A stretch of DNA of 64,000 nt, taken from Geosiphon pyriformis (taxonomy: Eukaryota > Glomeromycota > Glomeromycetes > Archaeosporales > Geosiphonaceae). The notes under the pieces are model-generated. The model worked only from the letters and a program-made list of their open reading frames with translations. It was not told the DNA's origin and did no database searches. The position numbers were made by a program, and so were the translations under genes. The DNA lies in the NCBI GenBank assembly GCA_016748015.1, contig JAAOMT010000258.1, positions 706,840 to 770,839 of the forward strand, written 5' to 3'. Below are positions 47,277 to 52,915 of the stretch, piece by piece. Every line of letters begins with the position of its first letter. Position 1 is the stretch's first letter.

Positions 47277-47280
47277 AGGG

Positions 47281-47394
47281 CTAATAGCGCCACTTTCAGG
47301 TTGATCAAATCACGCAGTTTTTAATAATAATGTCACAATCCCTCATTTTTTTTTTGGAAATGATCAATAAAGGTCTTACTGGTTGTTTGAAGAA
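47281..47394 (+). promoter_or_regulatory. Upstream block shared by the two RNase III-like paralogs, copy 1
   Basis: This upstream stretch shares several runs with the region upstream of the inverted paralog (52806-52915, minus strand): GCCACTTT, CAGGTTGATCAAAT, a T-tract, and TTACTGGTTGTT just before the start codon. The duplication therefore covered the promoter, or the block is under selection. Confidence 0.6.
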
Positions 47395-47958
47395 ATGCTT
47401 CAAAATTCAATTAAACCAATATTTTTCAACAGATTCAATTTTGAAACAACAAAGTTGCTTAAAGAGCTCGGCGCAAATTTTCCGACTGCCGACGGTATTC
47501 ATCTTCCCCCAATTAACAATAACCTCCTCTTCTATTCGGCACTTCTTCATCCAAGTAAAGGAAACCAACTAGATAAAAGGCTTTCATCACTTTTACCCGC
47601 CACATTCTATCGTCTAGCATTTCTAGGTGATGCAGCACTCACATATCATGTGGCTTTTATCTTACAAGAAAAATATTCAGAAGCGACTGTCGGCAATTTA
47701 ACAGCACTTCGTAGTAAGATTGTTAGCCGTAACAATTTAGCTGAATTTTGCAAATCGGTTGGATTGAAGGATAAAATTGTAGCTTCTTCTGGGATTCAGG
47801 AGCAGGTAAACGTGCAGGGGGAAGCTTTTGAAGCGTATATTGGAGCCTTATGTTTAGATTACAACAAGTATTTTAGTCCGAAAAGCAAAACTAATATAAA
47901 ATTAATAGCTAATCGAGTGACGGAGTTTGTAATAGAACAGCATATGCCGGATTTTTAG
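47395..47958 (+). CDS. RNase III-fold protein, catalytically altered (mL57/mL44-like?), copy 1
   Basis: Single-exon 187-aa protein from ATG 47395, the start that matches the paralog's N-terminus (MLQNSIKP against MLRNSIKP). It has one RNase III endonuclease-type domain: SALLHPS, the signature region RLAFLGDAALTYHVAFILQE, then NLTALRSKIVSRNNLAEFCK, and the second motif GEAFEAYIGALCLDY. Active RNase III has ExxxD in the first motif (LEFLGD) and DxxE in the second. Here the first Glu is Ala and the second-motif Asp is Glu, so catalysis is doubtful. There is no double-stranded-RNA-binding domain. Mitochondrial ribosomal proteins mL44 and mL57 are inactive RNase III folds, and length favours an mL57-type protein, but this is inference. 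Confidence 0.75.
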   Translation: MLQNSIKPIFFNRFNFETTKLLKELGANFPTADGIHLPPINNNLLFYSALLHPSKGNQLDKRLSSLLPATFYRLAFLGDAALTYHVAFILQEKYSEATVGNLTALRSKIVSRNNLAEFCKSVGLKDKIVASSGIQEQVNVQGEAFEAYIGALCLDYNKYFSPKSKTNIKLIANRVTEFVIEQHMPDF

Positions 47959-48905
47959 TGCAATACATATTTGTATATTGAAATGTCAAAAGTTTATATC
48001 CTATGAATGTTCAGCCATTTTATATCACAATTTATAATGTATTTAGTTTTCAAGTATTAGTTGATTAGATCTTTAAAGATTGCCAAAAAGCTCAAACCAT
48101 TTAAAAATTCCAAAAATTGTAGAAGGGCTATAAAGGTTCGGTGTGTACGTTTTTAGCAACCAAAGAATAGTTTGATTTTCAAAAATAAAGTGTAAATACC
48201 CTAGCAGAGCATGACAAAATCCTTTTGCAAGAGAAAATGGATTTTACAATTTAGTAAAAGTTATGAGAAAATTATCATGACCTTAGATATATGGACCTTT
48301 TGACCATATATCAATTCATCATGATTCATGCTTGAATCCAAAGTTTAATATATATTCTTAGCACCATTCGTTCAATATTATTTAAGCAAGATGTGTTTCT
48401 ACTTTGCTGACTCCTGCATTCTCCACAGTTTTTGGAATGAAAGCTTAGATTGATTCGACTGAATTCGTGTAGCAATGAGCTTTGGAAAGGAACTGAAAAT
48501 TTTTTTTACCAAATATATATATATATATGTTAAATTTTTTAATTAACCACCAATCCCTTAATAAAATCAAGCAGCGTAATTTAAAAATTTCTATGGTAAG
48601 CTGATTTCTTCGTACTCATCGAATAACCAATCAGTTTCTGGTTACACGATAAGTTGATCAATGCTCGGCTTGTAACTATGATAATAAGTTAAATGGACAG
48701 ATTTTTGCAAACAACATATCCTAATTTGCAACTCTCCAAAATAGCTTTCCCTACAAAAAAAAAAGAATTCTACTGCTAACGCTCCACCTAAGGTTTGTAT
48801 CAAATTCATTCCTGGAAGGCCTTATGGATATGCCCTGAAAGTACGTTATCACATTGATTTGAATAGTCAAAATAGGCTTAGCTGTTTTTGTTTAGTTTCA
48901 TCGCA
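47959..48905. other. Intergenic region
   Basis: No gene supported. It includes a short (AT)n run near 48517-48530 and the presumed promoter of the next gene. Confidence 0.5.
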
Positions 48906-49707
48906 ATGTCGTACCCAGGAAGCGTTGATGAAGGTTTTAGATCGCTAATTAGCTTGACAGAACAGGCATGTTTAATAACTCATTTAATTGATATATTGAA
49001 ACCTTTCCCAAATATCTAAATTCGATTAAAAATTTTCCACTTTAACGGAATTTTTGCAGCTCACGATAGATCAACCAAATAATTTCGAGAATCAAACTCA
49101 AAATTTCCCAAAAAATATTACTCCTCAAGTGCTAAACAGCTTAATCGAGTCAATAAGACCAAAAAATATTAATAGCTCTCGAATATTCCTGCCATCACCA
49201 GCGAATTCCAATTCTGACTTACCACCTCTAGCACCGATACATCCTCGGCTTTCTAGGCGACGAGGGGGAACAATGACACAAATTCGGCTCAGCGTCAGTG
49301 AAAATTTTATATTCCACTACGAGGTTCGAAAAAATCGTGGCTATAGAACTAATACCAATTTTAATGTGGGAATAATCGCCAATGAAATTCTCGCATTAAC
49401 TAAGCCAACAAACAAATTTGCATCAACCAAGTTTGCTAAGCAAGAAATGGAAAACAACCTTATCAAATGGATACAGCGTAAAAAGATTCCGGAGGCAAAA
49501 ATGATACCAATGTTAGAGGATTGGATGGCACAACAAATCGACGCTTTGACCGATGAAGAAAAGAAAGCAAGAGAAATGAAAAGAAAGGTTAAGGTAAATT
49601 TACAGTTTATTTTCAAAAATTATATATTTTTATAAATTGAAATTATCATCTTAAATTGCTATATTTCTTCTATATAGAGAGCTAGAGTTCGCTATGCAAG
49701 AATCTAA
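48906..49707 (+). CDS. Unknown protein with basic C-terminus
   Basis: Three exons join in phase: 48906-48965, 49060-49593 and 49678-49707, giving 207 aa. Start MSYPGSVDEGFRSLISLTEQ. The middle is Asn/Pro-rich and disordered, then LSRRRGGTMTQIRLSVSENF. A helical region follows (VGIIANEILALTKP, KFAKQEMENNLIKWIQRKK). The Lys/Arg-rich end has DEEKKAREMKRKVK and RARVRYARI, possibly a nuclear or nucleic-acid-binding tail. No family recognised; it does not match an HMG box or homeodomain. The first intron begins GCATGT, a GC donor, because no GT keeps the frame. It lies between the two inverted RNase III-like copies. Confidence 0.65.
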
Positions 49708-52208
49708 CAATGAATTTATCACCGCTTGATTAAAATTTTGTTATAAATTTTAAGAAAATTGCCGTCTTTCGCAAAACTGATAGCAACAGTTTACAAAAAT
49801 TTCATGAGCATTACCATCCGTACATTTAAGGTAAAGTTTTTAGAAAATCAAAAAACAAATAAGGGAGTTGCGTTTATTTGCATCATTTTGAAAAAAATCA
49901 AAATTTACAACCATTCACAATATTCCAAGAGTTTTGGCTGTTCTATTAAAGGGTTTTAATGTTTGATATTCTTTTCAAGAAACTCCTTACTTTATAAATA
50001 TCAAATGTGTAATTTACAAAAAAAAAATTCTGTTACAAAATCACTCAATAAGCATATTAGTGAGTCACAATGTTTGATATGGATTCATAACTAAAATTGA
50101 ATTGCTAGATTGCAATCTATTGTTGCTTATCAAAATATTTCGAGTCTCAAATTTGAAATAAATTTCTAATATTTTTAAGGTTTCAGGCATGATATCATAC
50201 GAAATTTATTCAGCCACGAGAAAACAGATACCGATGAAAAGATTTTCTTAATAATCATTTTCAAAATCTTGAAAATAAATATCCCCCTTTTTCTCTTCCC
50301 AATTCCCTCTTCACCGAGCTAACTTCTCAAAATACTGAAACCACCACCGCCACTTCCACGACTACCTCTACTACCAAGAAAGGTTACCTCTACACCCATG
50401 TCTGCAGTGCAAAGAAAAAAGAGGATCTCAATCTACGAACTCCTCGGCGATATTGGATCAGGTATCAATTTCCAACGATTAGAACTTAAGACCCTATTGA
50501 AACAAACCAGCTGCAAATTGATCTCGGAAATTGTGGTCACTCACCGTGATAAATTTTGCTGATTTTCCTTCGACCTCTTCTAATATACCTTTTTTCTCCA
50601 TTCTGCAAAACTCCTGGTTCTCTTCGATGATGCCCTCCGACTAGCATAAACTCATAAAAGACATTCTTGCCATCAACACAGTCTTTATATGCCACATGCA
50701 GGGGCAGGAGACCATCACAACTAGCTTGGATAAAGCCTCAATTAATCAAAGATAAATTAAGCTTTACACAGATATTTGGACAGAAAAAGACGTTAATGAG
50801 CATGAAGACGAGAAGCTCCGAAAAGCTGCAATATGGGCGAGGGCAAGTTCATGCGAACTGTTCTATGTCTTCGAATGTTGCTTCGGCATGCTTCGGGCAT
50901 GCATGGCAAAGTGCCCGCAAATATAATCGATAAAGCAATCGATGAAGCATTGATTGCTAGGGAAGTAATTGAGAGGCAGGGTCAATCATTTTGAGCTTGA
51001 AAAGATCTGCAACAAAGAAAAACAGAATTTTTCGAAATCTTCATGGAACCGTTTTTATGTCACTAATCTCCATAATTCGTTGATGCTTACTACATATCTT
51101 TATAAGACTGCCACCATTCTAGATAATGAAAAGCGTGGTTTTTAGGCTCTTTAGTTCGAAAAAAAGAGACATAATAATAGGTGGCCTGTTCCTCACAAGA
51201 TGATGTCGGATGACAAGCTCACTTATTATCACAAAACTAAAGGTGCAAATTTGTTTGAGTATACGAGGCATGAGTTTGCCAATAGTAGAAGTTTAGCCAA
51301 AAGTTTCCGTCCGCTCGATAATTTTGAAAGCCTCAAAAGGGTAATGCTCTAATTTGCCAAGAATATAAAGAAAAGCACCAAGTTAGGATGACCCATATCT
51401 AGTTTTCAATTTAGCAACAAATGTATTTGATTAATCAAAAGTGTGATTGTTTTTTGAAGAATATCTCAATAAAATCTTTGGTTAAGGATTTCAGCCTCGG
51501 GGAAAGGAGATAGAATATATCAAGTCCTTTTCCTTTGAAAAAATAAAGTTAAAAGGTTTTTTTTTAAAATTCAAAACTTTGATCATTGAGACACTCCTGA
51601 AGCTAAATCTATCAAACGGTCCACATTAAGAGCAAAAAACTATCTATATTTTTTTTTTTAGAAAAGCCCATTAACAGAAAATAAAATAAAATACTATCTA
51701 TAAAAAGCATTTTTTTAACCGACATCAATGGTTGAAAATTACAAGATTCTACCAAAGCAAATTTATTTGTTCAAAAATTTGAAAATCTTACCAAGTTTTG
51801 AATTCTTGAATGAATATTTTTTTATAAAAAAATGAACTCAAACCATTTCAAAGATATAATTCATAAGAATTTTTTTTTTCAATTACAATATTCTTTTTAT
51901 AAAGACTCCAGAACAAAAATACAATCCACTGAAACAAGATAATCATTTGAGAAAACAGTAGGATAACTTCTAATTTGCCATAAAAGAAAACAGATAAATA
52001 TTTTAATATCGTTCAGAAATTCAAAAATTAAACAAAAAGGCCTTTTCCCTTTTACAATCATGACTAGCTAAATCGTCATAATTACCTGAATTGTAAATTT
52101 TTAAAAGAAAAATTTAGGGAAAATGGAAAGATATAATGCAAAAAAACATTTGGCAATCAGTAAATGTATCAATTCCTTGATTAAAAAAAGAAAATATAAC
52201 TTATCAAA
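49708..52208. other. Intergenic region with a coding-like but broken island
   Basis: From about 50270 to 51350 base composition is more gene-like, with readable pieces such as KRISIYELLGDIGSGINFQR (near 50415), TDIWTEKDVNEHEDEKLRKA (near 50770) and an 88-codon frame at 50667-50933. These sit in different frames and are broken by stops. I could not join them or assign a family; a decayed gene or transposable element is likely. The rest (49708-50270, 51350-52208) is AT-rich with nothing recognised. Confidence 0.35.
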
Positions 52209-52805
52209 CTAAAAATTCGGCACGTGCCCTTCTACTGCAAACTCCGTTACTCGTTGAGCTATTAATTTTACATTGGCTTTGCTATTCGAATCAAAATACT
52301 TTTTATAATCTAAACATAAGGCTCCAATGTACGCTTCAAAAGCTTCACCCTGCACGTTTACTTGGTCCTGAATCTTTGAAGAAACAACAATTTTATCCTT
52401 TAATCCAACTGATTTGCAAAATTGAGCTAAATTGCTGCGACTGATAATCTCACTACGAAGTGCTGTTAAATTGCCGACAGTCGCTTCTGAATATTTTTCT
52501 TGTAAGATAAAAGCTACTTGATATGAGAGTGCTGCAGCACCTAGGAATGCTAGACGATGAAATTTAGCGGGTAAAAGTGATGAAAGTTTTTTATCTAGTT
52601 CGTTTCCTCTACTTGGATGAAGAAGTGCCGAATAAAAGAGGAGGTTATTGTTAATCGGGGGAAGATGAATTCCGTCGGCAGTCGGAAAATTTGCACTGAG
52701 CTCTTTAAGTAAATTCTTTTTTTCGAAGTTAAATGTGTTGGAAAATATTGGGGGTAGAATTTTCAAGAATTTCACGTTCAAAGGCTTAATTGAATTTCGA
52801 AGCAT
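52209..52805 (-). CDS. RNase III-fold protein, more degenerate inverted copy 2
   Basis: Single-exon 198-aa paralog of the protein at 47395-47958, in opposite orientation. Most positions are identical, including GNLTALRS, QVNVQGEAFEAYIGALCLDY and the spacing of all blocks. The signature here reads RLAFLGAAALSYQVAFILQE: the remaining acidic residue of copy 1 (LGD) is Ala, so both acids of the first RNase III motif are lost. The N-terminus is longer by an insertion (PLNVKFLKILPPIF). The frame is fully open, suggesting selection for a structural rather than nuclease role, or recent duplication. Confidence 0.75.
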   Translation of the reverse strand: MLRNSIKPLNVKFLKILPPIFSNTFNFEKKNLLKELSANFPTADGIHLPPINNNLLFYSALLHPSRGNELDKKLSSLLPAKFHRLAFLGAAALSYQVAFILQEKYSEATVGNLTALRSEIISRSNLAQFCKSVGLKDKIVVSSKIQDQVNVQGEAFEAYIGALCLDYKKYFDSNSKANVKLIAQRVTEFAVEGHVPNF

Positions 52806-52915
52806 TTCTTTAACAACCAGTAAGATCTTTATTTATTTGCTCATCAAAAAAAAAATGGAGATCATGATACTGCATTATTTGATCAACCTGAAAAGTGGCT
52901 TCATATTACTCGATT
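52806..52915 (-). promoter_or_regulatory. Upstream block shared by the two RNase III-like paralogs, copy 2
   Basis: Read on the minus strand this region carries GCCACTTTTCAGGTTGATCA, a T-tract and TTACTGGTTGTT ahead of the ATG, in the same order as upstream of copy 1. Similarity fades beyond about 110 bp. Confidence 0.6.

Follow-up and report, generated by a model that had tools for sequence, protein, structure and literature searches.

An inverted pair of putatively non-catalytic RNase III-fold genes in Geosiphon pyriformis

We have analysed a stretch of 64,000 nucleotides from the glomeromycete Geosiphon pyriformis (assembly GCA_016748015.1, contig JAAOMT010000258.1, positions 706,840 to 770,839; hereafter the window) that contains two closely similar genes for short RNase III-domain proteins in which the residues of the catalytic center are altered. 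The pair would have arisen when a gene for a non-catalytic RNase III-fold protein was duplicated locally in inverted orientation, together with about 100 bp of its 5' flank. With a paralog on another contig, the two genes would constitute a small lineage that is separate from the other RNase III-type genes named here for this genome, which are those for Dicer, class I RNase III, mL44 and an mL57-like protein. We regard it as an even chance that the products are non-catalytic, dimeric, RNA-binding scaffolds that are perhaps located in mitochondria, with activity, binding and location all being properties that we infer.

Arrangement of the duplicated genes

The features of this region are given below in window coordinates, with the evidence for each in brackets.

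47289..47394, plus strand: shared 5' flank, copy 1 side (limits of the DNA match, alignment)
47395..47958, plus strand: copy 1, coding sequence with stop codon, 187 aa (open reading frame, PF00636, catalytic map)
49030..49632, plus strand: intervening open frame, 201 aa (frame; one genome match with 49030-49730 as query)
50230..51271, no strand assigned: degraded dispersed repeat between the copies (DNA search with 49900-52150)
52209..52805, minus strand: copy 2, coding sequence with stop codon, 198 aa (open reading frame, PF00636, alignment, structure model)
52806..52899, minus strand: shared 5' flank, copy 2 side (limits of the DNA match, alignment)

An earlier note on this DNA described two nearly matching single-exon RNase III-domain genes with fully open frames, and this description holds, as each copy is one open frame that runs from an ATG to a homologous stop codon and each product scores above the Pfam cut-offs for the domain. 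The RNase III domain occupies about residues 45-156 of copy 1, and copy 2 differs in length by 11 extra residues near the N terminus that are inserted in frame. The same note had the two genes facing away from the middle; they are instead convergent, with copy 1 on the plus strand and copy 2 on the minus strand pointing inward. The proposed inverted duplication is itself well founded, with the main inverted arms being 544 nt long, 88% complementary and spaced 4248 nt apart. As a DNA match, 47289-47959 and 52208-52899 are 82% identical, and a search of the 124.7-Mb genome with 47280-47960 returned two places, both within the window (2 of 2 candidates scored). Conservation of about 110 bp upstream, also claimed earlier, corresponds to a common 5' flank of 106 nt in copy 1 and 94 nt in copy 2. 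The flank alignment contains a T run and is identical in 82 of 89 ungapped columns, and in copy 1 this homologous flank is presumed to be promoter or 5' UTR. At the other end, homology between the copies stops at the stop codon. Within the genes, the longest identical run is 63 nt (47653-47715 and 52452-52514), a length equalled in 81 of 5000 codon shuffles, which gives only a hint of possible local gene conversion or constraint.

Copy 2 is unlikely to be an assembly artefact, since the copies lie on one contig on opposite strands, differ at 67 of 561 aligned coding bases and have distinct outer flanks. Additionally, a duplication of DNA in place is preferred to a retrocopy because neither a poly-A tail nor a target duplication was seen by eye and because the 5' flank was included in the copy.

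The open frame between the copies is probably one of the exons of a spliced gene. Its product has a single Pfam match (Sec5, 18 bits against a cut-off of 22.7), and no second DNA copy of it was found in the genome with 49030-49730 as query. The dispersed repeat has at least 85 matches, the window itself included (40 of 117 candidates scored), and the other listed matches are 66-90% identical and fall within positions 331-1372 of the 49900-52150 query. One copy of this repeat (locus L029) runs into an open frame that we take to resemble the C terminus of Fanzor/TnpB proteins, and Pfam and PDB searches with this frame gave no match. A kinase gene is also present near the pair, and the DNA is AT-rich.

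Catalytic residues and predicted fold

Both proteins are members of the RNase III family, with scores of 57.4 (copy 1) and 50.5 bits (copy 2) on PF00636 (Ribonuclease_3, cut-off 27 bits) and of 45.6 and 42.4 bits on PF14622 (Ribonucleas_3_3, cut-off 35 bits). Neither copy has a dsrm match at E <= 0.1 that would indicate a double-stranded RNA-binding domain (dsRBD), and both frames end shortly after the nuclease domain. Searches of solved structures (E <= 1) returned 35 and 33 chains, which are of the RNase III, Dicer and Drosha types. For both copies the top match is 7dey (E 2.2e-9 and 1.5e-9), by its title a Dicer of Pichia stipitis.

Catalytic positions are numbered here after E. coli RNase III as E38/E41/D45/D114/E117; the passages of PMC4395119 that concern this enzyme give E38, G44 and D45 as conserved and name the stretches 38-46 and 114-118. 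In the alignment, the residues at these five positions are Y/A/D/E/E in copy 1 and H/A/A/E/E in copy 2. The set of metal-binding acids, E41, D45, D114 and E117 in the E. coli enzyme, is consequently incomplete in both proteins (A/D/E/E in copy 1 and A/A/E/E in copy 2). Two of these changes had been noticed earlier and are confirmed by the alignment. Specifically, the first catalytic Glu, absent from the LAFLGD motif of copy 1, is replaced at E41 by Ala in both copies, and the Asp reported as missing from copy 2 (LGAAAL) corresponds to LAFLGA with Ala at D45. Beyond what the earlier note recorded, both copies have also lost E38 and carry Glu at D114. Judged by these residues alone, copy 1 and copy 2 would both be non-catalytic.

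The model of copy 2, made with eight sequences that include true RNase IIIs, has a mean pLDDT of 75.8 with domain blocks mostly at 79-96 and displays a complete RNase III helical fold, while that of copy 1, made with three sequences, is poor (mean pLDDT 56.5). Comparison of the copy 2 model with solved structures using VIA-align gave Z 17.5 for Rnt1p (150 residues, 2.8 A), Z 16.8 for E. coli RNase III (141 residues, 2.2 A), Z 14.0-16.2 for mammalian mL44 chains and Z 13.8 over 153 residues for yeast mL57 (5mrc_9), with many nucleases scoring higher than the latter at 15-17.5. VIA-align shows one chain per entry, so that absence of other chains carries no weight; of the yeast mitoribosome, the copy 1 model drew mL44 from both 3j6b and 5mrc, and the copy 2 model drew mL57 from 5mrc. 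The RNase III fold of copy 2 models as intact, and as modelled the fold by itself does not pick among RNase III, mL44 and mL57.

Order of residue losses and fate of copy 2

The nearest paralog found is a 382-aa protein encoded on contig C404 (position 384459, locus L003), which is extended at the N terminus by a long, basic stretch (9 K/R and 2 D/E in 40 residues) and reads R/A/D/E/E at the catalytic positions. Its Smith-Waterman score against copy 1 is 149, as compared with 129 for a class I RNase III gene on C354 and 43 for an mL57-matching gene on C258, both of which are described below. A tree of 14 rows joins copy 1 and copy 2 at 98/95 and joins C404 to both at 83/93, with 8 of the 11 inner forks open and six rows long, C404 included. 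Support for the position of C404 is moderate and its branch is long. The stepwise loss of catalytic residues that was proposed earlier gains from this paralog, which has E41A and D114E but keeps D45. As C404 shares the first two changes with both copies and retains D45, the loss of D45 in copy 2 is the younger step. The ancestor would already have been without E38 and E41 and would have carried Glu at D114, with D45 being lost afterwards in copy 2.

Pairwise comparison of the coding sequences gave dN/dS ratios of 0.33 by NG86 (dN 0.092, dS 0.282; bootstrap 0.18-0.58, 500 resamples), 0.37 by LWL85 (dN 0.087, dS 0.236), 0.40 by maximum likelihood (dN 0.097, dS 0.240) and 0.59 by YN00 (dN 0.111, dS 0.190). 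The 67 differences over 187 codons are distributed as 17/15/35 over codon positions 1/2/3, and the sole change in coding length is the in-frame 33 nt; the 5' flank of about 100 nt has eight gap runs. In the dN/dS comparison called for by the earlier note the ratio is therefore below 1 (0.33-0.59), which indicates constraint in the history of the pair as a whole but is not assignable to each copy. The flank does not provide a neutral yardstick, because its substitutions (7 of 89) are rarer than those at synonymous sites, and it may itself be constrained or converted. Likewise, the open frame alone is weak proof of constraint, since in simulations of random substitution the frame survived 33 changes in 19-22% of runs and 48 changes in 9-12%. 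Retention of both copies by selection, as had been suggested, is possible, but dN/dS, the tree and relative rates do not settle the matter for copy 2.

These data bear directly on a reading that we consider somewhat unlikely, namely that function resides in copy 1, with constraint on copy 2 relaxed and this duplicate heading for loss. D45 is lost in copy 2 alone, the terminal branch of copy 2 is the longer one (0.15 versus 0.037 for copy 1), and the simulations leave its open frame as weak evidence of constraint. Additionally, when sites are polarized with C404 alone, five side with copy 1 and one with copy 2, with 28 of the 34 siding with neither. However, the asymmetry is not clear when eight outgroup rows are used (9 sites with copy 1, 7 with copy 2 and 3 tied), and the single length change in the coding sequence has left the frame intact.

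Other RNase III-type genes and the proposed role of the pair

A genome scan with PF00636 gave nine matches (10 of 10 candidates scored), located on C354, C355 (two, in Dicer), C328, C404, C258 and C330 in addition to copy 1 and copy 2. The C258 match (26.8 bits) is over the cut-off only together with its neighbours, and the C330 match (25.7 bits) is below it. With an mL44 gene on C317 included, the RNase III-type genes found number nine, a count that exon-split genes can escape, as mL44 did. The C330 gene (455365, locus L015) encodes a highly divergent RNase III-like protein of 227 aa with the signature RLSFIGGKLL that lies under the Pfam cut-offs. The C328 gene (826981, locus L012) encodes an RNase III-domain protein for which Drosha is the best solved match, and this protein could be a nuclear RNase III or resemble R3B2.

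The C354 gene (688590, locus L004) is a class I RNase III with a dsRBD, encoded in a single frame, that scores 196 bits on TIGR02191 and has intact acids (E/E/D/D/E). Class I genes of bacterial type are reported for Rhizophagus irregularis in PMC6399891 and PMC5982333. The C354 gene is perhaps of the kind reported in that species as horizontally acquired. The pair has a nuclease domain related to this class (75.8 and 68.1 bits on TIGR02191) but falls far under the cut-off of 166, is devoid of a dsRBD and has lost E41. A bacterial origin of the pair by transfer was considered and rejected. No transfer is claimed because these scores fall among those of the Dicer domains of the same genome (68 and 91) and of the C258 gene (79). 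In scans of genome contigs, P0001 found no relative among 122 pattern matches, and 3 of 75 with alignment A2 were bacterial RNase III-type proteins in a biased set that was picked via one short peptide pattern.

Presence of an active class I enzyme candidate raises the question of whether the pair supplies non-catalytic partners to it or to another active RNase III, such that one strand would be cut in a manner comparable to the trypanosome editing endonucleases. For kinetoplastid RECC complexes, PMC9508840 describes catalytic/non-catalytic RNase III heterodimers as well as KREPB proteins, pseudo-RNase III proteins that are kept for pairing and RNA positioning, and the C354 gene provides a dsRBD-containing enzyme with its acids in place. 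We nevertheless regard this arrangement as unlikely in Geosiphon, given that, according to the same paper, multiple heterodimers of this sort so far seem to be confined to kinetoplastids. The likeness to KREPB proteins is one of fold, whereas the pair has no zinc finger by Pfam and there is no sign of an editing complex.

A placement of the pair in the mitoribosome, as mL57 or mL44 or as recent paralogs thereof, is quite unlikely, although several features are in keeping with it. Fungal mL57 (MrpL15 in yeast) is a non-catalytic RNase III-type mitoribosome protein that is called vestigial in PMC11345376, and the vestigial RNase III fold is also common to mL44 (yeast MrpL3). Like such a protein, the pair has an RNase III domain without a dsRBD in fewer than 200 aa, the N termini are basic, and the copy 2 model aligns with yeast mL57 and the mammalian mL44 chains at the Z scores given above. 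Moreover, a genome scan with the mL44 nuclease model PF22935 gave two matches, both under the cut-off of 27, one being C354 and the other copy 2 (16.4 bits, E 0.64). However, neither window protein matched mL57 or mL44 chains at E <= 1 in the solved-structure search, and a profile of the pair plus C404 did not match them at E <= 10. The sequence comparison with RNase III, mL44 and mL57 that the earlier note proposed is consequently positive for RNase III, where both copies exceed the Pfam cut-offs, but not for mL44, with the pair at 14.1 and 16.1 bits on the RM44_endonuclase domain (cut-off 27), nor for mL57.

The ribosomal role suggested by that note is further weakened by separate candidates for both proteins. 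Unlike the pair, mL44 proteins have a dsRBD. The mL44 gene of this genome is a multi-exon gene on C317 that was located with an mL44-like string as probe. This probe matches solved mL44 chains at E 6.9e-40 (Neurospora) and 2.3e-35 (yeast) and finds two exons on C317 at E 1.0e-10 and 4.8e-8. The first of these exons scores 14.1 bits on DSRM_MRPL44, below the cut-off of 27, and translation of the locus contains more exon-like stretches; a genome scan with PF22892 gave zero matches. The spliced C258 gene matches Neurospora chain 6ywe_9 at E 1.9e-5 and yeast mL57 at E 1.2e-4 and 2e-4. The record name of 6ywe_9 is 'RNase III domain-containing protein', and we infer that it is mL57 since it shares its chain letter with yeast mL57. 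The Drosha and Dicer matches of the C258 gene are stronger than its mL57 matches, its match to the Neurospora mL44 chain is at E 0.38, its score on the mL44 nuclease model is 21.5 bits (cut-off 27), and it is also hit by the mL44-like probe (E 0.03). The case for C258 as the probable mL57 gene, which rests on a chosen splice model, is good without being conclusive. With E/E/E/R/L at the catalytic positions, the C258 gene has its losses in the opposite half of the acidic site from that altered in the pair, and its alignment score against copy 1 is the lowest of the three given above. As the pair matches no mL57 or mL44 chain while C258 matches mL57 and C317 is mL44, the pair most likely represents a further lineage.

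Nuclease activity of copy 1 through a rearranged metal site is very unlikely: D45 and E117 are retained and D114 is replaced by Glu, so that weak or Mn-dependent activity may be conceivable, and the Mucor R3B2 protein of an early-diverging fungus, as characterized in the domain analysis of PMC4395119, has an altered, non-canonical signature and an RNase III-like domain that is nonetheless required for function, but R3B2 has two dsRBDs, whereas none is detected by Pfam in copy 1 or its partner, and copy 1 has lost both E41 and E38.

RNA-binding scaffolds remain the preferred reading. The Phe of the LxFLG signature plugs the partner subunit in RNase III dimers, and this Phe is kept in the pair. 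With the fold and this Phe kept and catalytic residues lost, dimeric RNA binding without cutting is the most likely activity. The dimers, which could be homodimers, copy 1/copy 2 heterodimers or dimers with another RNase III-fold partner, would bind structured RNA. The basic N termini hint at mitochondria, although the case is weak for copy 1, which by a scripted residue count has 4 K/R and 2 D/E in 25 residues. A more specific version, which we offer as distinctly improbable, is that the pair and C404 form a third mitochondrial RNase III-fold scaffold family beside mL44 and mL57, in which obligate heterodimers would organise a mitochondrial RNA (an rRNA expansion or a precursor) and the inverted pair would encode two diverging subunits.

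Vestigial RNase III folds are already known from fungal mitoribosomes in the form of mL44 and mL57. If the scaffold reading is true, then this genome would hold one more such lineage, changed in the opposite half of the active site from the mL57-like gene. This would suggest that a single fungus has repeatedly converted the fold from an enzyme into a scaffold, with the inverted pair catching the loss of one more catalytic residue.
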